A stretch of 64,000 bases of DNA from Clostridia bacterium. GTDB lineage: Bacteria; Bacillota; Clostridia; Oscillospirales; Acutalibacteraceae. The DNA lies in contig JAFQON010000041.1 in the NCBI GenBank assembly GCA_017403185.1, positions 62,001 to 126,000 of the forward strand. The letters run 5' to 3'. Each line of letters opens with the position of its first letter. The first letter of the stretch is position 1. Shown here piece after piece: positions 3,794-26,087 of the stretch. The position numbers and the translations under genes were made by a program. The notes beneath the pieces were generated by a model, which had not been told where the DNA came from, did no database searches, and worked only from the letters and a program-made list of their open reading frames with translations.

Positions 3794-3817
3794 GACCAAA
3801 CAGTTTTTTCAGTCGTC
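3794..3817 (+). promoter_or_regulatory. ECF-like promoter element, copy A (cotH copy 2)
   Basis: GACC at 3794-3797 and CGTC at 3814-3817 are separated by 16 bases, in the context ATAGACCAAAC...CGTCTTATAGATGAAGG. The same architecture occurs at 7286, 10135 and 26064. CGTC is a typical -10 of extracytoplasmic-function sigma factors and 16 bases is a typical spacer, so this is read as an ECF promoter. The matching sigma factor is not in the window. Confidence 0.6.
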
Positions 3818-3828
3818 TTATAGATGAA

Positions 3829-3847
3829 GGGGTCAAAAAAGAGCCCC
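3829..3847 (+). other. Leader hairpin after ECF-like promoter A
   Basis: GGGGTC and GA(g)CCCC flank a poly-A loop shortly after the presumed transcription start and before the GGAGG ribosome binding site at 3852. Equivalent short hairpins follow the copies at 10135 and 26064. Confidence 0.45.
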
Positions 3848-3863
3848 GAACGGAGGTATAATT

Positions 3864-5675
3864 ATGAAAAAACTTATTTCAATTCTTATGGCGGCAATTC
3901 TTTCTTTTTCAGTTGTTTCACTGAGTGCTTTTGCGGCTGACGGCGGAGCAATATCCGACTTTTCGCTCGGAATGTCGGCGGAAGGCGAAGAGGGCACCGG
4001 TATTGAGATTGAATGGTATGAAAGCAGCGTCGATGGCTGCAGGTATCTTTTTGTGCCGCAATATCTGGATATGAACAGTATGAATATTTATTTTGAGGCG
4101 GATGCTGATGTTTATATCGGTGAAAACAAGCTTGAAAACGGTTGCTCTGCAGCATTGCTTGCGGATAAAACAGAGTTTACGCTCAGCTGTGCAGGTGAGA
4201 GCTGCAGCGTGAAGCTTTTAAGGGATTCCGCTGTTTCATCGGTGTTTATTGAAACTGCAAGCGGCAGCCTTGATGCGATTCATGCCGATAAGGAGCATAA
4301 AGAAGAGGGAAACATAACGATTATCAATTCTGACGGCGAAGAGGAGTGCTGCGGAGAGCTTGAATATATAAAGGGCAGAGGAAATTCTACATGGGGATTT
4401 GCCAAAAAGCCTTACAATATCAAGCTTGACAAAAAAGCAAATCTTTTCGGTATGGGTAAGAGCAAAAAATGGAGCCTTCTCGCCAATTACGATGACGCAT
4501 CTCTTGTGAGAAACGCACTTGCCTACACTGCTGCAAAGAATGCGGGATTGCCTTATACACCTGAATTTGAAGCGGTTGATTTATATATCAACAACGAGTA
4601 TCAGGGCGCATACCTGCTCACAACCCGTGTTGAGATTGATGAAACAAGAGTTGATATAACCGATCTTGAAAAAGAAAATGAAAAGGTCAATGAAGATGTT
4701 GATTTTGAAACTCTCTCAAGAGGCGGCACATACGGAACCTTCTCGGGTTATATCGAAGGTTCGAAAAAGTGGATTGATATTGAAAACAATCCTGCAAATA
4801 TAACCGGCGGCTACCTGCTTGAAAACGAGCTTCCGAGCAGATATTGCGACGAAATAAGCGGTTTTGTTACAGAAGGCAGTCAGGCTGTTGTGGTGAAATC
4901 CCCCGAATATGCCTCAAAAGCTCAGGTTGAATATATCAGTGACTACTATCAGCGGTTTGAAAATGTGATACGCAGTGAAAGCAGCACTCAGGCGGATGTT
5001 GCAAAGCTTTGTGATGTCGATTCTCTTGTAAAGGTTTATCTTATCAATGAATGGACTGCAAACCACGATGCAGGCATAACAAGCTCATATTTTTATAAGC
5101 CCGTTGATGATGTGCTCTATGCAGGCCCCGTATGGGATTTCGACGGCTCATTCCCGACTTCGGCTAAAAGCAGATTCGGAATTGATTACAGCAATCCCGC
5201 CACATGGACTGCGGCACACAGCAGACTTTATGCCATAACTTATTTCGGTGCGGGCAATACTACAAATGATTCACCTACTTATCTCTCATCGCTTGCAAAA
5301 AAGCAGTGGTTTGTAACTCTTGCAAAAGAGGAGTGGGAGAATGTAATGAAGACTGCCGTTCAAAAAGCAACAGAATATATCGGCACTGAATATTATGAGC
5401 ACATTGAAGGCTCGGCAGTCAATAATGCAATCCGTTGGAATCGTTTCGGAACAACTGATACGGCAGCAATTAAAACCGCTTTTGCTTCGCAGGTGAAGAA
5501 GGTGACGGATTTCTCGTCCGCCAAATCAGCTTTTATCAGCGGCAATATCGGCACGGTTGCTCAGCCGTGGAGTGAAAAAACCGTATGGGATAATATCAAG
5601 GATGCTTTTAACATCTTTCTTAACGATGTGTTTGAGGATATCCTTGTTATCTTCAGGCTTATAAATGTTGTATAA
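3864..5675 (+). CDS. Secreted CotH-kinase family protein (copy 2)
   Basis: A 603-residue paralogue of the preceding gene with its own promoter. The signal peptide is about 24 residues (cleavage after SAFA). The CotH motifs are in the same order: GRGNSTW (about 171), KKWSLLAN, DLYINNEYQGAYLL, NEWTANHDAG and GPVWDFDGS (about 424). It has GSFPTSAKSRFG where copy 1 has IGFGNNDSNRFG, so the loop after the metal-binding site has diverged. The C-terminus carries the same amphipathic hydrophobic segment with an FLNDVFE core. Tandem copies with different promoters suggest duplication followed by different regulation. The function as a secreted protein kinase is inferred from family, and the target is unknown. 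Confidence 0.85.
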   Translation: MKKLISILMAAILSFSVVSLSAFAADGGAISDFSLGMSAEGEEGTGIEIEWYESSVDGCRYLFVPQYLDMNSMNIYFEADADVYIGENKLENGCSAALLADKTEFTLSCAGESCSVKLLRDSAVSSVFIETASGSLDAIHADKEHKEEGNITIINSDGEEECCGELEYIKGRGNSTWGFAKKPYNIKLDKKANLFGMGKSKKWSLLANYDDASLVRNALAYTAAKNAGLPYTPEFEAVDLYINNEYQGAYLLTTRVEIDETRVDITDLEKENEKVNEDVDFETLSRGGTYGTFSGYIEGSKKWIDIENNPANITGGYLLENELPSRYCDEISGFVTEGSQAVVVKSPEYASKAQVEYISDYYQRFENVIRSESSTQADVAKLCDVDSLVKVYLINEWTANHDAGITSSYFYKPVDDVLYAGPVWDFDGSFPTSAKSRFGIDYSNPATWTAAHSRLYAITYFGAGNTTNDSPTYLSSLAKKQWFVTLAKEEWENVMKTAVQKATEYIGTEYYEHIEGSAVNNAIRWNRFGTTDTAAIKTAFASQVKKVTDFSSAKSAFISGNIGTVAQPWSEKTVWDNIKDAFNIFLNDVFEDILVIFRLINVV

Positions 5676-5746
5676 TACACAGCTGAAAAAAGATTTTATC
5701 TTATAATCACAGAGGATAAAATTTAACCTTGGAAAGGGGAAGGGAA

Positions 5747-6322
5747 ATGACTTGTCCGTATTGTAATGCAGAAATTCTGAACGAAGCTAAAACATGTAAG
5801 TTCTGCGGAGCCGATGTCACGGCGAAAAAGTCACAGGTACAAGCGATTCCGGAAGCAACTCTCTTGCAGGAAGCTCCGTCAGGATTAGGAATGAAATGGT
5901 TTAAATTGCAGATATATTTCCTGCTTTTTGCAGATGCTTTGTCATTGGCTGCCGGCGGCATAATAAATCTGAACGGGGGATTATCGTTTGGCGGAATTTA
6001 TTCGGACTTTGGCATTTTGAAGCCTGTTGATATTATTTTCGGAGTAATTGCTCTGGGACTTGCCGCATTCTGTATCGTCACAAGATTTCAGCTTTCAAAA
6101 TTCAAAAAGAACGGTCCGAAACTCTTCTATGCGCTTTCGCTTGCTGCTTTTGTCAGATCATCTGCATATGAAATTATCTGTCTTGCCGTGATTGCGCCGA
6201 CTGCGGATGTCAGCGTGTTTTCAACGGTCAGGAATATTCTTATCGGTGTTGTGGCTGAGTTTATTTATATCGTGGCTAACAAGATTTATTTTGACAGACG
6301 AAGAAATTTATTTGTGAATTGA
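5747..6322 (+). CDS. Zinc-ribbon membrane protein of unknown function
   Basis: 191 residues. The N-terminus is a small zinc ribbon (CPYC-N11-CKFC from residue 3), followed by a linker and four predicted membrane segments (about residues 50-75, 92-118, 128-155 and 162-182). Start chosen at ATG 5747 because GGAAAGGGGAAGGG immediately precedes it; an upstream in-frame TTG would overlap this binding site. No family name is recognised beyond the zinc-ribbon plus membrane-domain layout common in Firmicutes. It may be co-transcribed with cotH copy 2, since no convincing terminator lies between them. Confidence 0.7.
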   Translation: MTCPYCNAEILNEAKTCKFCGADVTAKKSQVQAIPEATLLQEAPSGLGMKWFKLQIYFLLFADALSLAAGGIINLNGGLSFGGIYSDFGILKPVDIIFGVIALGLAAFCIVTRFQLSKFKKNGPKLFYALSLAAFVRSSAYEIICLAVIAPTADVSVFSTVRNILIGVVAEFIYIVANKIYFDRRRNLFVN

Positions 6323-6370
6323 AACCGTACTCAAGCATAGGGTTAAATACTTTGTTTAGGAGTGAGTAAA

Positions 6371-7276
6371 GTGAAAAAGAAAAATCTTTTTGCTGCAATT
6401 TTGGCTGTTATTCTGGTGTTTTACGGTGTGAATACATATTTTATATTCAGCGGTGTCAGGAGAAGCTTTTTGGAGAATTTCAACCGCAGCACACATTATT
6501 TGGATGAATTCCGTCTTGATATTGTAAACAGTGATTACGATATTGAGCGCACAGCGAGGGAAGTCAGAACAATAGAATCCGGCTTTCCGATCGCCGCAAT
6601 TCTCTATGATTCCGAAGGGAATGTTGTTTCGCAGTCGGGAGCATATATCAAAATTTTAAATGATGAAAGCTTTTGCAGAATAGACGATTATCTGACCTCG
6701 GATATCAGAAAACAGATTACGGATTTTGAAAAGAAACACGGCTTTTGGATCAGTCAATTGGATTACAACATAAAAAACGGTGAAATTGTTCCTGTCAGCA
6801 TTTTAATTGATGGTACCGGCAATCAGGAGGAATTAACGGAGAAAGTAGTCTTTTTGAAAGAAAAAGCTGAATGTTCGTCTGATCAGGTTACGAATTATTT
6901 TAATCCGACAAGCTGGGAAATCGACGAAAGCCATCATAATCATAAATTATATAAATCGCTCTGTGAGAAAGCATTCAGCGAAGATGTTTGGAACAAAGTT
7001 TCAGCTGAATTTGCCGATTGGACAGGCGATTCCATAGAGATTGCGGATTATTATTGCAGCGGAAGCTTTGATGAATATTATTCCACCGAATTTTATAACA
7101 TTGACGGAGAAAAATATGTGCTTCATATCTGCTCCGAATTCAACCCCTTCGTTGAAACTCTTTTCTCATATGATTTTATATTTTTTCAGTGTGAACTTAC
7201 TGTTATCTATCTGCTGATTGGTGCCGTGATTTTTATAATTGCAAATAAAAAATACAAAAAATATAAAAACAATTGA
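6371..7276 (+). CDS. Two-TM membrane protein with extracytoplasmic domain, unknown function
   Basis: 301 residues. A membrane anchor at about residues 6-27 is followed by a large, acidic, presumably external domain of about 235 residues. A second membrane segment (about 268-292) leads to a short lysine-rich cytoplasmic tail. This is the layout of a sensor input region, but no kinase, GGDEF or HAMP domain follows, so it is not a complete sensor. GTG 6371 is chosen because AGGAG at 6358-6362 is correctly spaced for it and would overlap an upstream GTG. It is probably co-transcribed with the zinc-ribbon gene. No family is recognised. Confidence 0.65.
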   Translation: MKKKNLFAAILAVILVFYGVNTYFIFSGVRRSFLENFNRSTHYLDEFRLDIVNSDYDIERTAREVRTIESGFPIAAILYDSEGNVVSQSGAYIKILNDESFCRIDDYLTSDIRKQITDFEKKHGFWISQLDYNIKNGEIVPVSILIDGTGNQEELTEKVVFLKEKAECSSDQVTNYFNPTSWEIDESHHNHKLYKSLCEKAFSEDVWNKVSAEFADWTGDSIEIADYYCSGSFDEYYSTEFYNIDGEKYVLHICSEFNPFVETLFSYDFIFFQCELTVIYLLIGAVIFIIANKKYKKYKNN

Positions 7277-7285
7277 AAAGCTTCA

Positions 7286-7309
7286 GACCAAATCAGTTTT
7301 TAAAGCATC
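7286..7309 (+). promoter_or_regulatory. ECF-like promoter element, copy B (no gene follows)
   Basis: GACC at 7286-7289 and CATC at 7306-7309, with 16 bases between, in the context CAGACCAAATCAG...CATCTTGTATA. The -10 differs from the other copies by one base. The first 110 bases downstream hold no credible reading frame and end in a strong terminator. Confidence 0.4.
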
Positions 7310-7315
7310 TTGTAT

Positions 7316-7420
7316 AACGAGAGTGATAAATAAAATGATTTTTTGATTTACGTCTTCTCGTAAATGCCTTTTTACATCGAAGCCCTGTGTTTTCATGCAG
7401 CACAGGGCACTCCCTTTTTT
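7316..7420 (+). ncRNA. Candidate small RNA between ECF-like element B and a terminator
   Basis: About 105 bases lie between the promoter-like element and the terminator at 7382-7420. The only reading frame is a 7-codon GTG frame. ACGAGA near the 5' end can pair with TCTCGT about 40 bases later, giving a two-hairpin RNA. It could equally be the remnant of a deleted gene. There is no match to a known RNA family. Confidence 0.3.
7382..7420 (+). terminator. Rho-independent terminator upstream of the T-box unit
   Basis: A perfect 8-pair stem (GCCCTGTG with CACAGGGC) is followed by seven T residues. It isolates the T-box transcript from the upstream genes. Confidence 0.85.
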
Positions 7421-7432
7421 TATAAAAAACTA

Positions 7433-7461
7433 TTGACAAATTAATTTCTGAGTGTTATTAT
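7433..7461 (+). promoter_or_regulatory. Sigma-A promoter of the T-box unit
   Basis: A consensus TTGACA and TATTAT separated by 17 bases. Transcription should begin near 7468, at the 5' end of the T-box leader. Confidence 0.75.
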
Positions 7462-7467
7462 TACTCA

Positions 7468-7733
7468 CATAAAAGCTATGACGAAGAAGGCAGAATCGCA
7501 AGGTTTTCAGAGAGGCGGCGTTTGGTGCGAGCCGTCAGCGGAACGATTCAAGGCTATCCCTTCCGAGCAGAGGCTCCGAAAACCTTGTGTTAGTAGACAG
7601 CTTCCGTAATCGCTGCGTTAAAGCGTAGGGCTTGATAGAGTCCGTTGAGCGGCACTGAAAAGTGCAATTTGAGTGGTACCGCGGGTTTGATTTTACTCGT
7701 CTCAAAGCAAAACTTGCTTTGGGGCGTTTTTTT
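7468..7733 (+). promoter_or_regulatory. T-box riboswitch leader
   Basis: The leader of the single downstream gene. It has the conserved T-box GAGTGGTACCGCGG at 7671-7684, a Stem I apical part with GGTG and GAGCCGTC, GAATCG pairing with CGATTC, and a 13-pair terminator (7698-7710 with 7714-7726) followed by seven T residues. UGGU pairs with an ACCA tRNA end, so the tRNA should have A at the discriminator position. That argues against glycine or cysteine. The specifier loop reads AAGGCTATCC. Aligning it with the usual layout gives GCU (Ala) or CUA (Leu), and the choice is uncertain. T-boxes sense uncharged tRNA and allow read-through when it is abundant. Confidence 0.88.
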
Positions 7734-7762
7734 ATTTCCTCGAAGCGAAAGGAGAGAAAAAT

Positions 7763-10081
7763 ATGATAACTTTTGGTCAGGGTTCAGTCGAAAACAAAAT
7801 AATGGAGGTTGCTCAGCGAATTATTGCTCTTCGTCTGGATATGGGTCTTACTCAGGGCGAAATGGCCAATAAAATCGGTATGAGTGAAGAAGAATATTGC
7901 TATTATGAATCTGGCAGCAGGGATTTCAGCTTTACATTTATCTATAAGCTTGCTCAGGTTTGCAATGTTGAAATTACCGATATCATGGAAGGCAGCAGCC
8001 CCAGCCTCACTGAATATACTCTCACAAGAAAAGGCGAGGGGATGCCCATAACAAGAAGAGAGGGCTATGTTTATAACCGCCTTGCACCCTTCTTCAAGAA
8101 TAAAATTGCAGAGCCCTTCAGAGTTGTTATCCCTTATTCGGAAGAAGCTCTTAATCCTCCTTATCACTGTGTTTCTCACGAGGGTCAGGAAATTAACATT
8201 GTAACAAAAGGCGCTCTTAAAATAATTATCGGCGACAGAACGGAAACCCTTAATGAGGGCGACTGTATTTATTTTGATTCGGCTGTTCCTCACTGTGAAA
8301 TCGCAGTCGGCGGTCAGGAATGCGAATTCTATGCAATTGTTATTTCGCCCGACGGTTCATCTGAGATGACGGAGTGTGTTGAAGAAATCAAGGTTCCCAG
8401 CACAACCAATGTTGACCTTGCAAATCTTCAGAATCCCGTTTATGCAAAGTTTATTGAAACAACTCTTGATGAAAACGGTGTTCTTAACGGTATCACCTTC
8501 AAAAATGACGATAAATTTAATTTTGCTTTTGATGTTGTTGATGAGCTTGCAAAGAAATGCCCTGATAAAACCGCAATGCTTCATATCGAAAACGACGGAA
8601 CAGAAAGACGCTTCACATTCGGTGATATGAGCCGTGAATCTGCAAGAACTGCAAACTACTTTAAGTCACTCGGCATCAAAAAGGGCGACAGAGTAATGCT
8701 TGTTCTTAAGCGTCACTATCAGTTCTGGTTCTCAATTCTTGCTCTTCATAAGATCGGAGCAATCGTTGTTCCCGCAACAAATCAGCTTGTTGAGCACGAT
8801 TTTGAATACCGCTTCAATGCAGGTCAGATAAGTGCAATCGTCTGCACTGCAGATGGAGATGTAGCCCGTCAGGTTGAGCTTGCTGCCGAAAAGAGCGAAT
8901 TCCTTAAAACAAAAATCATTGCTCACGGCAAGCGTGACGGCTGGCACAGCTTTGATGACGAATACTGCACCTTCAGCGATGTTTACGAAAGACCTTCGGC
9001 AGAAGAAGGCGCATTCGGTTATGACCCGATGCTTATGTTCTTCACCTCGGGCACAACAGGATATCCCAAAATTGCAATGCACAGCCACAGATATCCTCTC
9101 GGTCACTTTATCACTGCCAAATATTGGCACAATGTTGACCCCAACGGACTGCACTTTACCATTTCCGATACAGGCTGGGGTAAGGCTCTTTGGGGCAAGC
9201 TCTACGGTCAGTGGCTCTGTGAAGCGGGTGTATTTACCTATGACTTTGACCGTTTTGTTGCCGATGATATTCTCAAGCTTATCGGCAAGCACAAGATAAC
9301 AACCTTCTGTGCTCCCCCCACGATGTACCGCTTCTTTATCAAAGAAGACCTCTCAAAATATGACCTCAAGTCAATCAAATATGCAACAACTGCAGGCGAA
9401 GCACTCAATCCCGAGGTGTTCCAGCAGTTCCTTAAGGCAACGGGCATCAGACTTATGGAGGGCTTCGGTCAGACCGAAACCACTCTTGCAATCGGTAATT
9501 TTGTCGGCTCATCAATCAAGGTTGGCTCAATGGGCAAGCCCAGTCCGCTCTTTGATGTTGACCTTATCACATCGGAAGGCACTGTTGCCAAGGTCGGTGA
9601 GGTTGGCGAAATCGTAGTCAGAACAGATGCAGGCTCACCCTGCGGTCTGTTTATGGAATATTACCGCGATGAACAGAAAACAACCGAAGCGTGGCATGAT
9701 AATATCTATCATACAGGCGATACCGCATGGAGAGATGAAGACGGCTTCTTCTGGTATGTGGGCAGAGTTGATGACCTTATCAAGTCATCAGGCTACCGTA
9801 TAGGCCCCTTTGAGATTGAAAGCGTTATCATGGAGCTTCCCTATGTTCTTGAGTGTGCGGTTTCAGCTGCACCTGATGAAATCAGAGGTCAGGTTGTTAA
9901 GGCAGATATCGTTCTCACAAAGGGCACGGAAAAAACCGATGAACTCAAAAAAGAAATTCAGAAGTATGTTAAAGAGCGAACCGCTCCTTACAAATACCCC
10001 AGAATTGTTGAGTTCAGGGATGAACTTCCCAAAACAATCAGCGGAAAGATCCGCCGCGTAGACCTCAGAGCGGGTAAATAA
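7763..10081 (+). CDS. XRE-cupin-acyl-CoA synthetase fusion protein
   Basis: 772 residues in one frame with three domains. An XRE helix-turn-helix spans about residues 10-72, a small cupin about 100-200 (PPYHCVSHEGQEI, then a GDCIYFDSAVPH strand), and an AMP-binding acyl-CoA synthetase about 235-772. The ligase motifs are intact: FFTSGTTGYPK, GFGQTET, YHTGDTAWRDEDGFFWYVGR and the C-terminal lysine loop in PKTISGKIRR. The ligase resembles the acetate/medium-chain acyl-CoA synthetase group. XRE plus cupin is a common architecture of metabolite-sensing repressors, so the protein may both activate an acid and sense it. It is monocistronic, behind a T-box, which suggests an acid from amino-acid metabolism. 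Substrate and any DNA target are unknown. Confidence 0.88.
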   Translation: MITFGQGSVENKIMEVAQRIIALRLDMGLTQGEMANKIGMSEEEYCYYESGSRDFSFTFIYKLAQVCNVEITDIMEGSSPSLTEYTLTRKGEGMPITRREGYVYNRLAPFFKNKIAEPFRVVIPYSEEALNPPYHCVSHEGQEINIVTKGALKIIIGDRTETLNEGDCIYFDSAVPHCEIAVGGQECEFYAIVISPDGSSEMTECVEEIKVPSTTNVDLANLQNPVYAKFIETTLDENGVLNGITFKNDDKFNFAFDVVDELAKKCPDKTAMLHIENDGTERRFTFGDMSRESARTANYFKSLGIKKGDRVMLVLKRHYQFWFSILALHKIGAIVVPATNQLVEHDFEYRFNAGQISAIVCTADGDVARQVELAAEKSEFLKTKIIAHGKRDGWHSFDDEYCTFSDVYERPSAEEGAFGYDPMLMFFTSGTTGYPKIAMHSHRYPLGHFITAKYWHNVDPNGLHFTISDTGWGKALWGKLYGQWLCEAGVFTYDFDRFVADDILKLIGKHKITTFCAPPTMYRFFIKEDLSKYDLKSIKYATTAGEALNPEVFQQFLKATGIRLMEGFGQTETTLAIGNFVGSSIKVGSMGKPSPLFDVDLITSEGTVAKVGEVGEIVVRTDAGSPCGLFMEYYRDEQKTTEAWHDNIYHTGDTAWRDEDGFFWYVGRVDDLIKSSGYRIGPFEIESVIMELPYVLECAVSAAPDEIRGQVVKADIVLTKGTEKTDELKKEIQKYVKERTAPYKYPRIVEFRDELPKTISGKIRRVDLRAGK

Positions 10082-10089
10082 GATTTAAA

Positions 10090-10131
10090 ACTGCGGAAAT
10101 TTCAAAAAATTTCCGCAGTTTCTGCTTTTTT
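10090..10131 (+). terminator. Terminator after the T-box-controlled ligase
   Basis: ACTGCGGAAATTT and AAATTTCCGCAGT form a long stem, followed by TTTCTGCTTTTTT. It makes the ligase gene monocistronic. Confidence 0.85.
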
Positions 10132-10134
10132 ACA

Positions 10135-10158
10135 GACCAAACCGTAAAATTATTCGTC
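10135..10158 (+). promoter_or_regulatory. ECF-like promoter element, copy C
   Basis: GACC at 10135-10138 and CGTC at 10155-10158, again with 16 bases between, in the context ACAGACCAAACC...CGTCTTTAAGGTG. A leader hairpin (AAGGC 10169-10173 with GCCTT 10182-10186) follows. It drives the YfjL-like membrane protein gene. Confidence 0.6.
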
Positions 10159-10213
10159 TTTAAGGTGTAAGGCAGAAAAAGGCCTTGAAACACAGTCTGA
10201 AAGGATGAAAATT

Positions 10214-10894
10214 ATGAAAACAAAAACAAAGAAGAATATCATTAAGGCGGTTGTCGGCACGGCGGTTGCGGGTGTTGTTGCGTTTGCAGGTTGGCTGGGC
10301 TGTGCGTTTTGGGGGAATCCGTTAGAGATGCATAAACTCAGTAAATCAGCCGAAGAATATGTTGAGAAAAAGTATCCGGATGAAAATTATGAAATTTCAA
10401 AATGTACATTCGATTGGAAGTTAGGTGATTATTATGTTACGGCACAGTCTCCGACAAGCGAAGACACACGCTTCACAATCCGTAGTGACTATGACGGAGG
10501 ATTTACCGATAATCATTCTGCAGAGACTTTCCAGCGTAATGCTGTTGAACGGTTTCTTGATGCACTGAAGGAAGATGTCAGATTGCTTGTTGAAGATGAA
10601 TTCGGAAGGAATATTGAGTTGACGGTAGGCATAATATCAGATGATGAATCTCCTGTTGTTGCCATTGACCAGCCGGTTGACCTTGAAAATTTTCCGTGGG
10701 AAATAAGTATTCAGATGCGAACAAATAAAGGCGATAAAACTGAAGATGAGATGGTTGAAGAAACGGTTGACAGAATTGCAAAGACATTGGGTGATAAATA
10801 CACCGTTGGTGAGTATACTTTTTATTACAGCAGAGGTGACGGAGGCAATAACTGGGTTACCCTGACAGCAGAAGAGGCGGCAAGAATACAATAA
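10214..10894 (+). CDS. YfjL-like membrane-anchored protein
   Basis: 226 residues. It starts with a basic segment and one membrane-spanning or uncleaved signal segment (about 10-30), then GNPLEMHKLSKSAEEYVEKKY, which resembles the start of YfjL-like proteins of Firmicutes (GNP, followed by an amphipathic helix and a KKYP motif). The rest looks like a soluble extracytoplasmic domain with alternating strands. ATG 10214 is chosen over 10205 because AAGGA at 10201-10205 overlaps the earlier one. It is monocistronic, behind an ECF-like promoter, which fits an envelope role. The biochemical function is unknown. Confidence 0.6.
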   Translation: MKTKTKKNIIKAVVGTAVAGVVAFAGWLGCAFWGNPLEMHKLSKSAEEYVEKKYPDENYEISKCTFDWKLGDYYVTAQSPTSEDTRFTIRSDYDGGFTDNHSAETFQRNAVERFLDALKEDVRLLVEDEFGRNIELTVGIISDDESPVVAIDQPVDLENFPWEISIQMRTNKGDKTEDEMVEETVDRIAKTLGDKYTVGEYTFYYSRGDGGNNWVTLTAEEAARIQ

Positions 10895-10897
10895 AAA

Positions 10898-10931
10898 ATC
10901 CCCGAGTTTCAAAAACTCGGGGATAAATTTT
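10898..10931. terminator. Bidirectional terminator between convergent genes
   Basis: ATCCCCGAGTTT and AAACTCGGGGAT form a 12-pair stem flanked by A-rich and T-rich runs. It can therefore end transcripts from both the YfjL-like gene and the leftward DUF3798 operon. Confidence 0.85.
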
Positions 10932-10933
10932 TG

Positions 10934-18186: not shown

Positions 18187-18192
18187 AGCATT

Positions 18193-18292: not shown

Positions 18293-18298
18293 AAAATA

Positions 18299-18517: not shown

Positions 18518-18540
18518 TGAAATTACCTCCTTTTTGGAGA

Positions 18541-18569: not shown

Positions 18570-18631
18570 CAAACTGCGGTTTACATTTATGTAAATTTCG
18601 CTTTGCGTTTTCAGGTTGCATTAAATAACCA

Positions 18632-18686: not shown

Positions 18687-18701
18687 GTAAGGAGGCTTCT
18701 T

Positions 18702-19136: not shown

Positions 19137-19552
19137 TGAATAAATATTTAAAGGAATTTTTTCTCAGAGGAATGATGTTCGGCGGGTTTGGACCGATTAT
19201 ATTGGGGATAATATATTTTGTGCTTTCAAAATCATTAAGTGATTTTTCGCTCGGCGGTTCTGAGGTTTTTCTCGGGATTGTTTCAATTTATCTTCTTGCT
19301 TTTGTTCATGCAGGTGCCAGTGTGTTTAATCAGATTGAGCATTGGTCGATAGCAAAATCCCTTTTATGTCATTTCAGTTCACTTTATGTTGCATATGTTG
19401 TTTGCTATATCGCAAACTCATGGATACCGTTTGATTGGGGAGTTATAGGAATCTTTACTGCGATTTTTGTTGTGCTGTATTTTATTATATGGTTTACCGT
19501 TTACTTTATTGTGAAAGCAACAGAGAAAAGATTGAACGCAACCTTAAAATGA
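19133..19552 (+). CDS. DUF3021 membrane protein, partner of the LytTR regulator
   Basis: 139 residues, four membrane helices (about 14-32, 43-63, 76-95 and 102-127) and a basic C-terminal tail. The layout and position directly after a LytTR gene match the DUF3021 family. In known LytTR regulatory systems (for example HdrRM and BrsRM of streptococci) the membrane protein inhibits its regulator; the same role here is inference from the pairing. Two consecutive ATG codons occur at the start. Confidence 0.85.
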   Translation: MMNKYLKEFFLRGMMFGGFGPIILGIIYFVLSKSLSDFSLGGSEVFLGIVSIYLLAFVHAGASVFNQIEHWSIAKSLLCHFSSLYVAYVVCYIANSWIPFDWGVIGIFTAIFVVLYFIIWFTVYFIVKATEKRLNATLK

Positions 19553-19555
19553 AAG

Positions 19556-19590
19556 TAAAAAGACAAGGCGGTTATCCGTCTTGTCTTTTT
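19556..19590. terminator. Terminator between convergent genes
   Basis: AAAAGACAAGGCGG and CCGTCTTGTCTTTT form a stem, followed by T residues on the plus strand. It overlaps the last codons of the leftward acetyltransferase gene. Confidence 0.75.
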
Positions 19591-20060
19591 GCAAATTCCG
19601 TGAGTTTGTTGCCTGCCATGCGGTAGGTTGTCCATTCATCCATAGGCGTTGCACCGAGTGATAAATAAAAGTCGATGCTCGGTTTATTCCAGTCAAGGCA
19701 GCACCATTCAAGCCTGCCGCAGTCTCTTTCAACCGCAATTTCGGCAAGCTTTTTCAGCAGAGATTTGCCGTAGCCCTTGCCTCTGTATTCAGGCAGCACA
19801 AACAAATCCTCAAGGTAAATTCCTGCTCTGCCGAGAAAGGTTGAAAAGTTATGAAAGAACAGTGCAAAACCAACCTTTTTGCCGTTTTCAACAGCAAAAA
19901 CAACCTCGGCTTTTTTCTTCTCAAAAAGCCATTCCTTCAGCAATTCGGGTGTGGCAACAACCTCGTCAAGCATGTTTTCATATTCCGCAAGCCTTGTGAT
20001 AAAATCAAGAATGGTTCCTACATCATCTTCGGTTGCGTATGTAATTTCAAAATCATTCAT
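19572..20060 (-). CDS. GNAT acetyltransferase, diamine N-acetyltransferase-like
   Basis: 162 residues with the GNAT fold. YLEDLFVLPEYRGKGYGKSL is the acetyl-CoA-binding motif A, and RLEWCCLDWNKPSIDFYLSLGA with MDEWTTYRM matches the spermidine/spermine (or thialysine) acetyltransferase branch. It would acetylate a polyamine or small amine with acetyl-CoA in the cytoplasm. It is monocistronic. Exact substrate uncertain. Confidence 0.85.
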   Translation of the reverse strand: MNDFEITYATEDDVGTILDFITRLAEYENMLDEVVATPELLKEWLFEKKKAEVVFAVENGKKVGFALFFHNFSTFLGRAGIYLEDLFVLPEYRGKGYGKSLLKKLAEIAVERDCGRLEWCCLDWNKPSIDFYLSLGATPMDEWTTYRMAGNKLTEFAKRQDG

Positions 20061-20138
20061 ATATCATCACCCGGAAATAATATAACATTATATTGCGTTT
20101 TTTGCAACAAATTAATCGATTTTAAGGATGCTTCGTGT

Positions 20139-20231
20139 ATGATTGATCAGACAAACAAGCCTGAAACCCGGATTACTCTTAACACAAACGGAACAGCCGC
20201 AAAGGATGATTTTGTCAGCGGGCAAGCTTAA
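20139..20231 (+). CDS. Possible small reading frame, 30 residues
   Basis: The frame starts MIDQTNKPETRITLNTNGTA and ends in SGQA. An AAGG lies about 12 bases upstream, farther than usual. The intergenic stretch 20061-20261 otherwise shows nothing recognisable. It may be a gene fragment or chance. Confidence 0.2.
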   Translation: MIDQTNKPETRITLNTNGTAAKDDFVSGQA

Positions 20232-20261
20232 AGTTTGTCCGTCTTATTTTTTCTTTTGCTG

Positions 20262-20289
20262 TTGACTTTTTTTATTAATATGGTATACT
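20262..20289 (+). promoter_or_regulatory. Promoter of the pyrimidine operon
   Basis: TTGACT and TATACT with 16 bases between, plus a TG one base before the -10. Only 30 bases separate it from pyrC, too short for a PyrR attenuator, and no terminator-antiterminator pair is visible. Confidence 0.7.
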
Positions 20290-20319
20290 TAATAAAGTAA
20301 CTGATGAAAGGGTTAGACC

Positions 20320-21555
20320 ATGAGTTTTACTGTAAAGGGTTGTAAAATAAACGGGCAGGGCAATTCTGCTGATATATTTGTTTCAGGCGGCGTCTTCGGC
20401 GGTGCCTGTGATACCGTTTTTGAATTTAATAATTGTGCTGTTTTTCCCGGCTTTATTGATGTTCATGTTCATCTCAGAGAGCCGGGATTTTCTTATAAAG
20501 AAACGATAAAAACGGGCACAAAAGCCTGCGCAAGGGGCGGCTACACAACCGTTTGTTCAATGCCCAATCTGAATCCTGTGCCCGACAGCGCCGAGCATCT
20601 CAATGCACAGCTTGAACTGATAAAAAGCGGTGCGGTGATGAATGTTGCACCCTACGGCTCGATAACAGTCGGTCAGAATGGTGAAAAGCTCTCCGATATG
20701 GCGGCTATGACGCCTTATGTGTGTGCTTTCTCCGATGACGGCAAGGGCGTGCAGAGTGAGGATATGATGCGTGAAGCGATGATAACCGCAAAGTCGCTCG
20801 GCAAAATGATCGTTGCCCACTGTGAAGATAATTCATTGCTTAACGGCGGATATATTCATGCAGGCAAATATGCGGCTGAGCACGGTCACAGAGGAATCTG
20901 CTCCGAAAGCGAATGGAAGCCCATTGAGCGTGACCTTAAATTAGCTGCCGAAACAGGCTGTGCATACCATGTGTGCCACATCTCAACAAAAGAGAGTGTT
21001 GACCTTATCCGCAAAGCAAAGGCTGCAGGCGTTGATGTTACCTGCGAAACAGCTCCGCACTATCTTATTCTCAGCGATAAGGATTTGCAGGAGCACGGCA
21101 GATTCAAAATGAATCCGCCCCTGCGTGACGAAAGTGACAGACTTGCTCTTATCGAGGGCATCTGTGACGGCACAATCGATATGATTGCCACCGACCACGC
21201 ACCCCATTCTGCCGAAGAAAAGGGCAGGGGTCTTGAAAAAAGCGCAATGGGAATAACAGGCATTGAAACAGCCTTCCCTTTGCTTTACACACATCTTGTA
21301 AAAGAAAAAATCATAACTCTTGATAAGCTCATCGAGCTTATGAGCACAAATCCCGCAAAGCGTTTCGGCTTTGATAACTCAATTGAAAACGGCAATTTCA
21401 ACGTGTTTGATTTAAACAGCAAATATACAATTAATCCCGATGATTTTCTTTCAAAGGGCAGAGCAACTCCGTTTGAAGGGTATGAAGTATACGGCGAATG
21501 TGTTATGACCGTATGCGGCGGAAAAATAGCTTGGAAGAAGGGAGAAGACAAATGA
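20320..21555 (+). CDS. pyrC: Dihydroorotase
   Basis: 411 residues, class I dihydroorotase, which closes carbamoyl-aspartate to dihydroorotate. The metal-binding DVHVHLREPG (about 47) and a C-terminal IATDHAPHS motif (about 290) are present, with the usual GGYTTVCSMPNL segment between. It is the first gene of a seven-gene operon, and its stop overlaps the next start (ATGA). Confidence 0.96.
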   Translation: MSFTVKGCKINGQGNSADIFVSGGVFGGACDTVFEFNNCAVFPGFIDVHVHLREPGFSYKETIKTGTKACARGGYTTVCSMPNLNPVPDSAEHLNAQLELIKSGAVMNVAPYGSITVGQNGEKLSDMAAMTPYVCAFSDDGKGVQSEDMMREAMITAKSLGKMIVAHCEDNSLLNGGYIHAGKYAAEHGHRGICSESEWKPIERDLKLAAETGCAYHVCHISTKESVDLIRKAKAAGVDVTCETAPHYLILSDKDLQEHGRFKMNPPLRDESDRLALIEGICDGTIDMIATDHAPHSAEEKGRGLEKSAMGITGIETAFPLLYTHLVKEKIITLDKLIELMSTNPAKRFGFDNSIENGNFNVFDLNSKYTINPDDFLSKGRATPFEGYEVYGECVMTVCGGKIAWKKGEDK

Positions 21556-22283
21556 ACAGAGGAATATATGAAATAATCGAAAACAAACCCCTGACCAAAG
21601 ATATTTATGAGATGAAGCTTGCGGGCGAAACCTCTCATATTACCGCACCGGGTCAGTTTATAAATATTCTTCTTGAAGGCTTTTATCTTCGCAGACCCAT
21701 CTCAATCTGCGATTACGACGACAAAACAATAACAATAATTTATAAGGTGGTCGGTCACGGCACAGAGGCAATGGCAAGGCTTTCAAAAGGTGAAAAGCTC
21801 GATATTCTCTGCGGTCTCGGCAACGGCTTTGACACTTCAAAGAGTGGCAAAAAAGCAGTGCTCATCGGCGGCGGGGTAGGCGTGCCCCCGATGTATAATC
21901 TCTGCAAAAAATTGCTTGCTGAGGGCAAAGAAGTTTCTGTTATTCTCGGCTTCAACACAGCAAGCGAAATTTTCTATAAAGAAGAATTTGAAGCGCTCGG
22001 CGCAAAGGTTTATGTTTCAACCGTTGACGGCAGCGAGGGTGTAAAAGGCTTTGTTACCGATGTGCTCAAAGACCTTGAATATGACTATTTCTTCACTTGC
22101 GGCCCGATGCCGATGTTCCGTGCAATCGAAAAGATTGCCGCAACGAGCGGTCAGTACAGCTTTGAGGAGCGTATGGGCTGCGGCTTCGGTGCCTGCATGG
22201 GATGCTCATGCAAAACAAAATACGGATATAAGAGAATCTGCAGGGACGGCCCCGTGCTTGAAAGGGAGGAGATAATATGGTAA
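21552..22283 (+). CDS. pyrK: Dihydroorotate dehydrogenase electron-transfer subunit
   Basis: 243 residues. An FAD-binding ferredoxin reductase-like fold (RRPISICDYD, then the nucleotide-binding GGGVGVPPMYNLCKKL) is followed by the [2Fe-2S] cysteine cluster CGFGACMGCSC with a later C near RICRDGP. It passes electrons from dihydroorotate to NAD via the PyrD partner. ATG 21552 is chosen because it overlaps the pyrC stop and lies behind AAGGGAGAAG. It overlaps pyrD by 7 bases. Confidence 0.95.
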   Translation: MNRGIYEIIENKPLTKDIYEMKLAGETSHITAPGQFINILLEGFYLRRPISICDYDDKTITIIYKVVGHGTEAMARLSKGEKLDILCGLGNGFDTSKSGKKAVLIGGGVGVPPMYNLCKKLLAEGKEVSVILGFNTASEIFYKEEFEALGAKVYVSTVDGSEGVKGFVTDVLKDLEYDYFFTCGPMPMFRAIEKIAATSGQYSFEERMGCGFGACMGCSCKTKYGYKRICRDGPVLEREEIIW

Positions 22284-23194
22284 ACACAAAGGTTAATCTT
22301 TGCGGAATTGAGCTTGATAACCCCGTTATTCCCGCTTCGGGCACCTTTGGTTTCGGCTACGAATTTGCAGAGCTTTATGATATCAACTGCCTTGGAACTT
22401 TTTCGTTCAAGGGCACAACAAAGGATGCGCGCTTCGGCAATCCCACTCCCAGAATTGCAGAGTGTGACAGCGGCATGATAAATGCTGTCGGTTTGCAGAA
22501 TCCCGGCGTTGAAACGGTTATAAGCCACGAGCTTCCCGAACTGAAAAAATGCTTTTCAAAGCCCGTTATGGCGAATGTAAGCGGTTTTTCAATTGAAGAT
22601 TATGCTTACACCTGCGAAAAACTTGATAAAGAAGAGCAGGTCGGTTGGCTTGAGGTTAATATAAGCTGCCCCAATGTTCATGGCGGCGGTATGAGCTTCG
22701 GCACATCGCCCGAGGCGGCAGCAGAGGTCACAAAAGCAGTTAAGGCGGTAACGACAAAGCCTGTGATTATCAAGCTTTCACCGAATGTTACCGATATCGT
22801 TTCAATTGCAAAGGCTTGTGAGGAAGCCGGTGCAGACGGCGTGAGCCTTATAAATACTCTTCTCGGCATGAGAATTGATCTGAAAACAGGAAAACCCGTT
22901 ATTGCAAATAAAATGGGCGGATTTTCAGGCGCAGCAATAAAGCCCGTAGGCATAAGAATGGTTTATCAGGTCAGCAATGCCGTCAAAATTCCCGTTATCG
23001 GTATGGGCGGCGTTTCAAATGCAGAGGATGTAATTGAATATATTATGGCAGGCGCAACGGCCGTTGAGGTCGGCGCTGCAAATCTTGTCAATCCATATGC
23101 GAGCAAAGAGATTGTTGAAAATCTTCCTGCAGTCATGGCTAAATACGGTGTTAAAAATTTAATTGATATAAAAGGATGTGCACACAATGGGTAA
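22277..23194 (+). CDS. pyrD: Dihydroorotate dehydrogenase, class 1B catalytic subunit
   Basis: 305 residues, an FMN-dependent TIM barrel. The class 1 signature EVNISCPN carries the catalytic Cys, and the FMN phosphate loop GMGGVSNAEDVIEYIMAGATAV lies near the end. The adjacent pyrK shows that it is the NAD-linked 1B type. Starts inside the end of pyrK behind GGGAGGA and overlaps pyrF by 8 bases. Confidence 0.96.
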   Translation: MVNTKVNLCGIELDNPVIPASGTFGFGYEFAELYDINCLGTFSFKGTTKDARFGNPTPRIAECDSGMINAVGLQNPGVETVISHELPELKKCFSKPVMANVSGFSIEDYAYTCEKLDKEEQVGWLEVNISCPNVHGGGMSFGTSPEAAAEVTKAVKAVTTKPVIIKLSPNVTDIVSIAKACEEAGADGVSLINTLLGMRIDLKTGKPVIANKMGGFSGAAIKPVGIRMVYQVSNAVKIPVIGMGGVSNAEDVIEYIMAGATAVEVGAANLVNPYASKEIVENLPAVMAKYGVKNLIDIKGCAHNG

Positions 23195-23885
23195 AGATGT
23201 AATCGTAGCTTGCGATTTCAGCAGCAAGCAGGCAGTAATGGATTTTCTCGATAAGTTTACAGAGGAAAAGCCTTATGTAAAAATCGGCATGGAGCTTTTC
23301 TATGCGGAAGGTCCTTCAATTGTTAAGGAAATCAAGGCAAGAGGACACAAGATTTTTCTTGACCTCAAGCTTTGCGATATTCCCAACACAGTCAAGAAAG
23401 CCATGAGCGTGCTCAGCGGACTTGATGTTGACATGACAAATCTTCACGCAAGCGGCACAATTGAAATGATGCAGGCTGCACTTGAAGGTCTCACAAGACC
23501 CGACGGCACAAGACCTCTTCTTATCGCAGTAACTCAGCTCACCTCAACAAGTGAAGAAAGAATGAGGGAGCAGCTTCTTATTGATAAGCCTCTTGATGAG
23601 GTTGTTATGCACTACGCTTCAAATGCTGAAAAGGCAGGTCTTGACGGTGTCGTTTGCTCGCCTCTTGAAGCAGGCAAGGTTCACGACAGATGCGGTGCAA
23701 AATTCATCACCGTTACTCCCGGTGTACGCTTTGCAGACGGCGATATCGGTGACCAGGTAAGAGTTACCACTCCCGAAAAGGCAAAGGAGCTCGGCTCGGA
23801 CTACATCGTAGTCGGCAGACCCATCACAGCTGCCGAAGACCCCGTTGCGGCTTACAGAAGATGTGTTGCGGAATTCGTAGGTTAA
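23187..23885 (+). CDS. pyrF: Orotidine 5'-phosphate decarboxylase
   Basis: 232 residues, group 1 OMP decarboxylase. The catalytic block is FLDLKLCDIPNTV (Asp-x-Lys-x-x-Asp, about 60-72), and phosphate-binding GVRFADGD and VVGRPI loops follow. It makes UMP from OMP. ATG 23187 is preferred over GTG 23178 because AAAGGA at 23171-23176 is spaced for the former. Confidence 0.96.
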   Translation: MGKDVIVACDFSSKQAVMDFLDKFTEEKPYVKIGMELFYAEGPSIVKEIKARGHKIFLDLKLCDIPNTVKKAMSVLSGLDVDMTNLHASGTIEMMQAALEGLTRPDGTRPLLIAVTQLTSTSEERMREQLLIDKPLDEVVMHYASNAEKAGLDGVVCSPLEAGKVHDRCGAKFITVTPGVRFADGDIGDQVRVTTPEKAKELGSDYIVVGRPITAAEDPVAAYRRCVAEFVG

Positions 23886-23916
23886 TCAGTAAATAATTCT
23901 CAGGAGGTTAATATAT

Positions 23917-24555
23917 ATGGAAAAGCTTATTGCAAAAGATTTACTCTCAATCGGTGCTGTTTTTCTTCGCCCCGAAGAGCCCTTTACATGGGCAAGCGGC
24001 ATCAAAAGCCCCATTTACTGCGATAACAGACTCACTCTCACTGCACCGGCAGTAAGAACAGATGTTGAAAAAGGTCTTGCAGAAATCGTTAAAAATCATT
24101 ATCCTGATGCAGAGGTGCTTATGGGCACTTCAACCGCAGGTATTGCTCACGCAGCAATCACTGCTCATCTTCTTGATATGCCTATGGGCTATGTGCGTTC
24201 GGGTGCAAAGGACCACGGCAGAGGCAATCAGATTGAGGGCAAGCTTGAAAAGGGTCAGAAAGTAGTTGTTATTGAAGACCTTATCTCAACAGGCGGCAGC
24301 GTTATTGAAGTTGTTGATGCTCTTCGTGAAGCAGGCGCAGAGGTGCTTGGCATTGCAAGCATCTTCACATATGGCATGAAAAAGGGTCTTGACAGACTTG
24401 CAGCAGCCGAAGTTAAGAATGTAAGCCTCACAAACCTTGATGTAATAGCAGAAGTCGCAGCGGAAACAGGCTATATCAAGCCTGAGGATGTTGCCCGTCT
24501 TATTGCTTTCAGAAACAACCCCTCCGACGAAAGCTGGATAGGGGGAGCAAAATGA
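23917..24555 (+). CDS. pyrE: Orotate phosphoribosyltransferase
   Basis: 212 residues. Type I phosphoribosyltransferase with the PRPP-binding motif [14 protein letters not shown] (about 115-128) and the flexible loop [15 protein letters not shown]. It attaches orotate to PRPP. CAGGAGG precedes the start, and its end overlaps pyrB (ATGA). Confidence 0.96.
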
Positions 24556-25466
24556 GAAGTCTTATAGACATTCTTTCGCTCACAACAGAAGAAATTGACG
24601 AGCTTATTGCCGTTGCCGAGGATATTATAGCAAATCCCGTGAAATACCGCGATAAGTGCAGATACAAGAAGCTTGCAACCCTTTTCTTTGAGCCCTCAAC
24701 AAGAACCCGCCTCAGCTTTGAGGCGGCTATGTATGAGCTCGGCGGTCAGGTGCTTGGCTTTTCTGAGGCTAATTCATCATCAGCCGCAAAGGGTGAAAGC
24801 GTTGCCGATACCGCAAGAACGGTAAGCTGTTATGCGGATATCATAGCCATGCGTCATCCCAAAGAGGGCGCACCGCTTGTTGCATCAATGGCGGCAAGCG
24901 TGCCTATTATCAATGCGGGTGACGGCGGTCATAACCACCCCACGCAGACACTCACCGACCTTCTCACAATCAAGCGTGAAAAGGGCAGGCTCAATAATCT
25001 CACCATCGGCTTTTGCGGAGACCTTAAATTCGGAAGAACCGTTCATTCTCTTATCGAAGCTATGTCAAGATATACCGGCATAAAGGTTGTGCTTATTTCA
25101 CCTTATGAGCTTCAGCTTCCCGGATATCTCAAAAAAGAAACTCTTGATGCAAAGGGCATCGAGTATAAAGAAACAACGGATCTCAGTGCGGTTATGCCCG
25201 AGCTTGATATTCTTTATATGACAAGAGTTCAGCGTGAGCGTTTCTTCAACGAAGAGGATTACCTCAGACTCAAGGACAGCTATATTCTCACCCCCGAGAA
25301 GCTTGTTGATGCAAAAGAAGACCTTGCAATTCTTCATCCGCTGCCGAGAGTTAACGAAATCCATACATCCGTTGATGCAGACCCCAGAGCCTGCTATTTC
25401 AGGCAGGTGCTCAACGGCAAATTTATCCGCATGGCTCTTATTCTTAAACTGCTGGAGGTGGAGTAA
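24552..25466 (+). CDS. pyrB: Aspartate carbamoyltransferase catalytic subunit
   Basis: 304 residues. The carbamoyl phosphate loop [13 protein letters not shown] (about 43-56), HPTQTLTDL, and the aspartate-domain HPLPR motif (about 265) are all present. This is the committed step of pyrimidine synthesis. With pyrI directly downstream it belongs to the allosteric holoenzyme type. Confidence 0.97.
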
Positions 25467-25883
25467 TTGCATATTGATTCTATCAAAAACGGCGTTGTAA
25501 TTGACCATATCAAAGCGGGCAAAAGCATGGAGATTTATAACCATCTTGAGCTTGATAAGCTTGACTGCACGGTTGCAATCATAAAAAATGTCAGCAGCAA
25601 GAAGATGGGCAGAAAGGATATTATCAAGGTTGATTCCGAGATGGAGGTTGACCTTGATGTGCTCGGTTATATTGACCCTGATATCACGGTTAATATAATC
25701 AAGAATGAAGTGCTTTGCGAAAAGAAGAAGCTTACTCTGCCAAATCAGATAAAAGATGTTGTAAAGTGCAAAAATCCCCGTTGCATCACTACCACCGAGC
25801 AGGATTTGCCCCACATTTTCAAGCTTACAAATGCAGAAACCAAGACCTATCGCTGCATTTATTGCGAATCAAAAGCAAAATAA
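25467..25883 (+). CDS. pyrI: Aspartate carbamoyltransferase regulatory subunit
   Basis: 138 residues. The N-terminal allosteric domain (IDHIKAGKSMEIYNHLEL) binds nucleotides, and the C-terminal zinc domain has the four cysteines CKNPRC and CIYC. It starts at TTG 25467 directly after the pyrB stop, behind GGAGGTGGAG; no ATG is available at the proper position. Last gene of the pyr operon, which lacks carAB and pyrR. Confidence 0.95.
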   Translation: MHIDSIKNGVVIDHIKAGKSMEIYNHLELDKLDCTVAIIKNVSSKKMGRKDIIKVDSEMEVDLDVLGYIDPDITVNIIKNEVLCEKKKLTLPNQIKDVVKCKNPRCITTTEQDLPHIFKLTNAETKTYRCIYCESKAK

Positions 25884-25893
25884 TTGTTCTCAA

Positions 25894-25924
25894 AACCTGT
25901 ACGGCTGACCGTGCAGGTTTTTTG
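25894..25924 (+). terminator. Terminator of the pyr operon
   Basis: AACCTGTACGG and CCGTGCAGGTT form an 11-pair stem (one wobble) followed by T residues. Confidence 0.88.
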
Positions 25925-26063
25925 TTACAAATTGTTACATATATATTACAACAATTACGGTTTGATTTCAGTTGTGTAATAAATATTTACAAATCGCAAA
26001 TTAATGCTAAAATGGAATTACAAAAAGATTTAAAAAATTTTAAATTTTTTCAAAAAAAACATA

Positions 26064-26087
26064 GACCAACCGCAGATTTGTATCGTC
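26064..26087 (+). promoter_or_regulatory. ECF-like promoter element, copy D
   Basis: GACC at 26064-26067 and CGTC at 26084-26087, 16 bases between, in the context ATAGACCAACC...CGTCTTATAGGTGAAAGG. A hairpin GGGTT/GACCC (26101-26115) follows. It drives the tandem secreted-protein genes. The rest of the gap from 25925 is AT-rich with no other feature. Confidence 0.62.

Follow-up and report, generated by a model that had tools for sequence, protein, structure and literature searches.

Which sigma factor, if any, reads the motif GACC-N16-CGTC that recurs in a 64,000-nucleotide stretch of DNA from a Clostridia bacterium (GenBank assembly GCA_017403185.1, contig JAFQON010000041.1) is the question raised by this locus. 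The stretch, referred to here as the window, is C36:62001-126000 of a 2.4-Mb draft genome (G000) comprising 50 contigs and 80% complete. A sequence-only reading of the window had proposed four copies of an extracytoplasmic function (ECF)-like promoter, one with CATC in place of CGTC, three of them followed by a conserved start region, a short hairpin, and a gene for an exported or membrane-anchored protein. All four sites are observed where that reading placed them: exact matches at 3794-3817, 10135-10158, and 26064-26087, and the CATC form, with one mismatch, at 7286-7309. The CGTC copies are probably promoters of a regulon that is read by RNA polymerase carrying a member of a family of membrane-tethered ECF sigma factors, and the coordinates of the window features are collected in Table 1.

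The promoter motif in the window and in the genome

Taken by itself, the short form GACC-N16-CGTC is weak evidence for the window sites. It shows a mild excess only, with three occurrences against 0.62 expected (at least three in 4 of 100 shuffles) and 25 against 17.8 expected when one mismatch is allowed. The longer form AGACCAA-N14-CGTCTT, with at most one mismatch, is found at precisely four sites, compared with 0.07 expected, and no shuffle reaches four. Across the whole genome, GACCAA-N14-CGTC has 14 matches, compared with one for the reversed control. Leaving the gap free between 2 and 30 bases yields 41 matches, 14 of which are spaced by 14 bases, with every other gap occurring three times at most (Poisson p 2.8e-12); because the free-gap total does not exceed that of the control (47), the signal resides in the fixed spacing.

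All 14 exact copies lie 33-59 nucleotides (nt) upstream of the start codon of an open reading frame (ORF). The sequence-only reading had suggested examining whether the motif also occurs inside genes, and no exact copy is located in the interior of another ORF longer than 130 amino acids (aa). Most copies are overlapped by short mechanical ORFs (60-130 aa), and at L003 and L007 the frame of the downstream gene stays open into or beyond the motif. An ECF sigma gene carrying the motif had likewise been suggested as a check, and one of the 14 copies precedes such a gene (L008, a 752-aa ORF with a hydrophobic segment). A hydrophobic segment is found in the products of 12 of the 14 first genes and in 20 of 57 window ORFs, a greedy non-overlapping set in which three motif genes are included (p 7.5e-4). 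These counts bear out both the ECF-like promoter and the regulon of exported proteins, and it is well supported, at the level of sequence, that the three CGTC copies are ECF-type promoters of a regulon encoding mostly envelope and secreted proteins.

Alignment of 15 copies (the 14 exact ones and L015:12978) reveals invariant columns at AGACC, CGTCTT, the TG at bases 8-9 after CGTC, and an A two bases past this TG. The spacer is free, with the -35 element, the -10 element, and a downstream block, TTATAGGTGAAAGG, being fixed. A sequence-only model built from this alignment, R1, has 20 matches in the genome at E <= 1e-3 and 26 at E <= 10, of which 15 are the model's own sequences. Among the matches added by the model are those of a GNAT-like gene (C46), the ordinary ECF gene L031, the operon of a further sigma gene (C2), and genes for a secreted protein (C40) and a papain-like protease (C15); a variant class, TGAACC...CTCGTCTAATGGGTGAAAGG, belongs to the weaker-scoring ones (C47 and C29). 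R1 matches at E <= 1e-3 are present in five of 20 genomes (20 in G000, 3 in G002, 10 in G006, 7 in G008, and 11 in G011). Within the order, GACCAA-N14-CGTCTTA occurs in two of 117 genomes, G000 and one with a single match, in a sample that did not contain G002, G006, G008, or G011 and in which the control pattern also gave scattered single matches.

The start region and hairpin that had been described behind the three CGTC copies are both present, the predicted folds being more stable than those of mononucleotide shuffles (Table 1). As a general promoter feature, the hairpin was rejected, with z falling below -1.5 at 18 of 45 promoters against such shuffles. The conserved block is real in the three CGTC copies and is not specific to the regulon. 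The pattern GTGA[AG][AG] six bases behind CG[TA]N precedes seven of 40 ordinary sigma genes, compared with a mean of 0.12 and a maximum of two in shuffles and none on the reverse strand; the pattern was chosen after examples had been seen, and the 40 genes, some of them related, were picked from those fetched for the genus and the order, with L031 and the tethered genes left out. A wider search for the block gave 10 matches in genomes other than G000, compared with three in the control, and three of nine inspected loci precede an ECF gene (L203, L208, and L209, the last two from one genus). Because it is also found before ordinary ECF sigma genes, the block belongs to ECF promoters more widely. 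GTGAAAGG or a near form stands at a fixed place after the -10 element before ordinary ECF genes of several groups and families (L036, L043, L133, L140, L142, L144, L151, L203, L208, and L209). As a guess, the block, with its likeness to a Shine-Dalgarno sequence, might stabilise mRNA at the 5' end. The possibility that the conserved GTG/ATG/TTG opens a short leaderless ORF was dropped because in several of the 45 promoters the start is directly followed by a stop (GTG TAA) and the frames diverge downstream; the filter for these 45 itself required [GAT]T[GA], so that conservation of these letters is claimed only from the 14 copies selected by their -35 and -10 elements and from the 15 in the alignment.

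Putative membrane-tethered ECF sigma factors and associated promoters

The genome contains 25 Sigma70_r2 matches, none of which is on C36, in agreement with the earlier observation that the window has no sigma gene. Six of the matches reside in ORFs of 504-752 aa that carry sigma regions 2 and 4 at the N terminus, followed by an Ala/Thr-rich stretch and one hydrophobic region near residues 270-300. Four of these fusions (L030, L033, L034, and L038) continue into a Thr-rich stalk and a small C-terminal domain, L048 into a stalk and, by eye, a leucine-rich-repeat-like end, and L037 into a domain of ~440 aa; two further long sigma-like ORFs, L039 and L049, lack the tethered shape by eye. Sigma70_r2 and Sigma70_r4_2 are above their Pfam curated cut-offs in L037, L034, and L038, TIGR02937 matches L037 with 97 bits (cut-off 42.9), and no Pfam zinc-finger match was obtained in these three scanned chains. 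Hydropathy exceeds 1.7 over a 19-residue window between residues 260 and 312 in each of the 13 chains covered, out of 16 loci, and one chain has a second such window at 226-244; a membrane helix is thereby predicted. The closest named protein to the 752-aa sigma factor is 98% identical and derives from a goat-colon metagenome bin, Clostridia bacterium RGIG2096.

Tethered-type sigma factors, defined by E < 1e-27 and a frame of at least 495 aa, are encoded by 24 genes among the 20 genomes, located in the five motif genomes, in G005, and in G007 (30% identity). Co-occurrence of motif and tethered sigma gives a Fisher value of 3.9e-4 with six carrier genomes, 0.0047 within the genus, and, by hand, ~0.0014 with G007 as the seventh carrier, values that serve as a guide only because the genomes are related. 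Within the family, tethered sigma factors were found in seven of 50 sampled genomes, G000 and one congeneric genome included, and they extend to a few other genera.

Fifteen of the 23 tethered-type genes with upstream DNA have a promoter of the type described above before the gene or its operon, within 2.2 kb; the 24th, G005_C329, lacks upstream DNA. Eighteen genes were examined first and five thereafter, and upstream of the first 18 the pattern occurs 15 times in the forward and three times in the antisense direction in 31,772 bases. By eye, the promoters fall into four classes: A (CGTC followed by TATAGGTG), a CGTA type, B (TGAACC...CGTCTAATGGGTG), and an L037 class (CGTCTTATTTATG, CGTCTAATTTATG, or CATC). 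When these labels and "none" are placed on a tree of 19 sigma domains, four changes are required, which is the minimum, compared with a shuffled mean of 12.1, and 0 of 200 shuffles are as low; a tree of 23 sigma domains again requires four changes (shuffled mean 13.4, none of 200 reaching so low a number). Three labels, class B, the CGTA class, and "none", each form a single group, and classes A and L037 account for two changes each. In line with control by the tethered factors, G002 has four tethered sigma factors, none with a class A promoter, and three motif matches only. Ten operons (C2, C9, and C47 of G000; C7, C19, and C21 of G011; C34 of G006; C26 and C21 of G008; C69 of G002), picked after being seen, encode a partner protein of 77-96 aa between promoter and sigma gene. 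The partner has a conserved core (VNLDGLHSLDISVNE ... IYAEKFDAPCNYLKAAIKKGI) and gave no Pfam match in the one member scanned; one idea is that it may be a cytoplasmic regulator of the sigma factor. The corresponding loci are L183, L184, L187, L176, L123, L177, L179, L182, L119, and L121.

Several observations weigh against control by the tethered factors. Eight of the 23 genes are without such a promoter (G000_C47_6109, G000_C25, G005_C524, G002_C69b, G011_C8, G002_C44, G006_C70, and G007_C22), G011_C8 showing a single stray match to the pattern that lacks a CGT -10 element; the set includes the L033 type and the four members with leucine-rich ends (G000_C25, G011_C8, G002_C44, and G006_C70). 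The promoter assigned to G006_C19 is 1,092 nt upstream, in front of another gene. Tethered sigma factors occur without the promoter in G005 and in G143 (upstream regions only for the latter), and no such promoter was found in the 1.2 kb upstream of nine tethered-sigma matches outside G000 in the family sample. G008 has seven motif matches, and no class A sigma factor was found in this 88% complete bin. Neither class A nor class L037 forms a single supported clade; the labels were assigned by eye, and inheritance of whole operons could yield part of the agreement between class and clade, whichever factor reads the promoters. The topology is predicted from hydropathy alone, the structure models being unusable (the secreted protein reached pLDDT 57 and the full-length sigma factor 32). 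The members with leucine-rich-repeat-like ends, which lack a promoter of this kind, constitute a subclade (L178, L180, L181, and L185), with one each in G006, G011, G002, and G000.

The genes behind the motif in other genomes resemble those of G000. By blastp to the G000 gene, a papain-like protease gene is found behind it in G006 (44%), G008 (48%), and G002 (41%), a BNR/sialidase-like protein in G008 (62%) and G006 (60%), and an ATP-binding cassette (ABC) ATPase in G006 (71%). Relatives of the secreted protein encoded at window position 26145 stand behind the motif on C9 of G000, twice in G011 (L081 and L092), and once in G006 (L088). Homology links the outer part of L037 to the secreted proteins encoded in the window and on C9 (hhalign probability 99.1%, E 6.4e-19, 297 columns, with the 26145..27392 protein as the first row of the profile), compared with a probability of 0.2% for the CotH protein used as the control. 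This homology of sensor and product is demonstrated for the L037 clade only. Two matches were set aside. The ~210-aa membrane proteins L082 and L084 (G006/G008) were considered as relatives of the YfjL-like protein at 10205 and rejected, with blastp E values of at least 7 or no listing; L082, L084, and L098 are relatives of one another. PDB 2wz8, a carbohydrate-binding module with the molecule name cellulosome protein dockerin type I, gave a weak profile match (E 1.7e-4) that is absent from the single-sequence search and is not used as evidence.

Sequence itself shows the promoter pattern and its placement in front of genes, the autogenous promoters, the architecture of the fusions, the match between class and clade, and one sensor-product homology; the pairing of sigma factor and promoter, the topology, the cue, and the proteolytic release are what we infer. 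Control by membrane-tethered ECF factors is likely rather than proven. In the proposed mechanism, sigma regions 2 and 4 (residues 1 to ~185) would be cytoplasmic and connected by the Ala/Thr-rich linker to one membrane helix (~260-310), beyond which a stalk, Thr-rich in most chains, would carry the C-terminal domain, taken to be a surface sensor. On arrival of a cue at the outer domain, cleavage within or close to the membrane would free the sigma part, which could then read AGACC-N16-CGTC before its own operon, often with the 77-96 aa partner, and before ~16 other operons. Thirteen of these ~16 start with a gene for a secreted or membrane protein, 11 by hydropathy and two by eye. The best candidate reader of the class A promoters in the window would be the 510-aa L038 sigma factor (C9:31590), whose operon begins with a class A promoter, and some paralogues may read variants of the same promoter. 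One regulon membrane protein, L018:6347-7486 (-) on C4 of G000, contains an HESGH motif and matches Pfam M50 with E 0.0012, below the cut-off; it is a candidate for a protease that might cut the tethered sigma factor.

A broader picture is offered tentatively, as one that we rate somewhat below even: the paralogous tethered ECF factors may serve as one-chain switches that both sense and transcribe, several having a promoter variant of their own and each a distinct outer domain, with at least one of these domains akin to the secreted products; in addition, the GTGAAAGG block that ECF promoters of several groups in this order have six bases behind the -10 element may be recognised by the polymerase and not by one particular sigma factor, or may act as a 5' mRNA element.

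Competing explanations, the fourth site, and the window genes

The claim of four promoter copies holds for the three CGTC sites and is unproven for the CATC site. The latter lacks the TG at +8/+9, and its R1 score of 13.3 bits (E 0.17) compares with 48-57 bits for the other three, which belong to the training set of R1. It follows the stop codon at 7276 and precedes a terminator-like hairpin, with no gene at promoter distance. The next gene (7763-10081), which encodes an AMP-binding enzyme with helix-turn-helix and cupin domains, has its own TTGACA-17-TATTAT promoter (7433-7461) and is preceded by a T-box leader at 7469-7707 (+; Rfam RF00230, 97 bits). It is conceivable, although doubtful, that the fourth site drives a ~95-nt small RNA, possibly ECF-controlled, that ends at the terminator. 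The site is retained in G008, where the equivalent scores 20.8 bits and shares all but 3 of 37 core positions, the overall identity of the stretch being 82%; the stable fold (z -3.8) and the terminator also favor such an RNA. Against it stand the weak R1 score, the absence of the TG in the window (in G008, a TG is found one base further on), and predicted folds that differ between the window genome and G008 apart from the terminator. Because the folds outside it differ between the two species, the terminator may merely end the upstream operon.

An ordinary ECF factor might read the regulon in place of the tethered ones, which would then be targets only. The candidate, L031 (C20:54239), has GACC-N16-CGTT-TTATAAGTGAAGGGG directly before its own start (R1 26.5 bits), a finding that counts against tethered control as well, and is followed by a gene for a 350-aa anti-sigma-like protein, giving what looks like a sigma/anti-sigma gene pair with a membrane anti-sigma partner. 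L031 relatives, however, are present in 14 of the 20 genomes, with or without the motif; those in the other motif genomes are at most 50% identical, and relatives of 45-48% identity occur in the motif-less G001, G003, G004, G005, and G012. The clade-specific promoter variants before the tethered sigma operons would also go unexplained, and this alternative is considered unlikely. Still less probable is that the motif is the binding site of another type of regulator: conservation after the -10 element (GTGAAAGG) does exceed what ECF factors are generally known to read, but the two blocks at a fixed 16-base distance, the CGTC -10 element, the non-palindromic form, the position 33-59 nt before starts, and the ECF sigma genes among the targets speak for a promoter. 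Remnants of a dispersed mobile repeat, suggested by the many copies in some genomes of one genus and the lack of enrichment in the wider order, are very improbable, given that the spacer is free while the -35 element, -10 element, and downstream block are fixed and that every exact copy faces a gene. Recognition by tethered ECF factors is thus retained as the preferred explanation for the CGTC copies.

Table 1. Promoters, conserved blocks, and genes in the window (positions count from the first nucleotide of the window)
Feature	Position	Strand	Basis
ECF-type promoter, class A (AGACC -35, CGTC -10), before CotH-domain gene	3793..3817	+	exact match; R1 54.2 bits (C36:65780)
Conserved block TTATAGATGAAGGGGT after -10 and start of short hairpin	3818..3833	+	alignment A1, invariant columns over 15 copies; fold z -2.7
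First gene, secreted protein with CotH domain, 603 aa	3864..5675	+	Pfam CotH 9.2e-37; start codon 46 nt after CGTC
Zinc-ribbon membrane protein, probable operon member	5747..6322	+	Zn_Ribbon_1 2e-5, slightly below curated cut-off; gene order kept in L193
304-aa membrane protein, probable last gene of CotH operon	6362..7276	+	ORF; gene order kept in G008
Fourth site, CATC form, function unproven	7285..7309	+	1 mismatch; R1 13.3 bits, E 0.17; site kept in G008
Terminator-like hairpin after fourth site	7382..7408	+	RNA 7316-7420 folds with z -3.8
ECF-type promoter, class A, before YfjL-like gene	10134..10158	+	exact match; R1 48.0 bits
Conserved block TTTAAGGTGTAAGG and hairpin start	10159..10180	+	alignment; fold z -3.9
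Membrane-anchored YfjL-like protein, 229 aa, alternative start 10214	10205..10894	+	Pfam YfjL_N 5e-11
ECF-type promoter, class A, before secreted beta-domain gene	26063..26087	+	exact match; R1 57.0 bits
Conserved block TTATAGGTGAAAGGGG and hairpin	26088..26118	+	alignment; fold z -6.5
Secreted 415-aa protein, homologue of outer domain of C13 tethered sigma (L037)	26145..27392	+	blastp; hhalign
Second secreted protein, same family, next gene co-directional	27394..28662	+	32-34% identity to 26145..27392 product

Two CotH-domain genes are arranged in tandem in the window (1942-3738 and 3864-5675), and the promoter stands only before the second. The G008 counterpart of the window CotH gene lacks this promoter, and the zinc-ribbon gene that follows it there has its own class A promoter; the window zinc-ribbon protein is 75% identical to the first gene product behind the G008 motif L080. 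No Pfam family was assigned to the 304-aa membrane protein in the Pfam scan. G011 has a class A promoter after the AMP-binding gene, as at window 10135, with a different downstream gene: at L190 (G011 C14), a transporter-like gene, by eye, takes the place of the YfjL-like gene. Elsewhere in the window, a ZMP/ZTP riboswitch is located at 37851-37952 (-; Rfam RF01750, 60.7 bits).

Comparison with known systems

If the proposal is correct, uncultured ruminant gut Clostridia gain a testable signalling design in which one protein senses outside and transcribes inside, and the promoter variants would keep the paralogues apart. The kinship of the sensor domain with secreted products hints at what is sensed; the cell may gauge its own surface layer or a ligand bound by its secreted proteins. 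The GTGAAAGG block presents an unexplained, readily testable feature of ECF promoters, and the pattern as a whole would provide a rule for predicting surface-protein regulons in sequence-only genomes. No description of a clostridial tethered-sigma family was found in the literature searched.

A related logic is seen in SigI and RsgI, which are two proteins; SigI is not a typical ECF factor, and the RsgI sensors resemble the secreted targets. Sensing and transcription are split over two proteins in that system, whereas the sensor and sigma factor of the factors studied here are joined in one chain. In Clostridium thermocellum, several paralogous sensors are encoded in one genome, and cutting within the membrane helix switches on secreted-enzyme genes (PMC12203970). 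Fusion of a sigma factor to a membrane-bound regulator is exemplified by IutY of Pseudomonas putida (ECF243), which is freed by regulated intramembrane proteolysis (PMC8999054). The regulator of IutY is the fused anti-sigma factor of an iron-siderophore system, and none such is recognised in the clostridial chains. ECF262, whose type sequence is from Ruminococcus albus, a clostridial species, is listed with a regulatory extension (table 2 of PMC8999054), and ECF factors with C-terminal extensions occur across many groups (PMC8103513).

A close likeness is to ECF52, represented by SCO4117 of Streptomyces coelicolor, in which an ECF factor, a membrane segment, a low-complexity stalk, and an outer domain form one chain; positive autoregulation is suggested, proteolytic release is proposed, and the group is described as exclusive to Actinobacteria (PMC5826349). 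Similar to ECF52 as described there, the clostridial chains join a sigma factor to a stalk and a presumed outer domain by way of a membrane helix predicted from hydropathy. In ECF52 a zinc-finger domain lies between the sigma part and the membrane segment, whereas L037, L034, and L038 have no Pfam match to one, and, unlike ECF52 in that account, the factors studied here are clostridial and occur as several paralogues whose promoters vary. Membrane ECF factors in one chain are already known from Actinobacteria and Pseudomonas; as far as the searches reach, what is new is a clostridial set with no recognised zinc finger, clade-specific promoters, and a sensor akin to the products.

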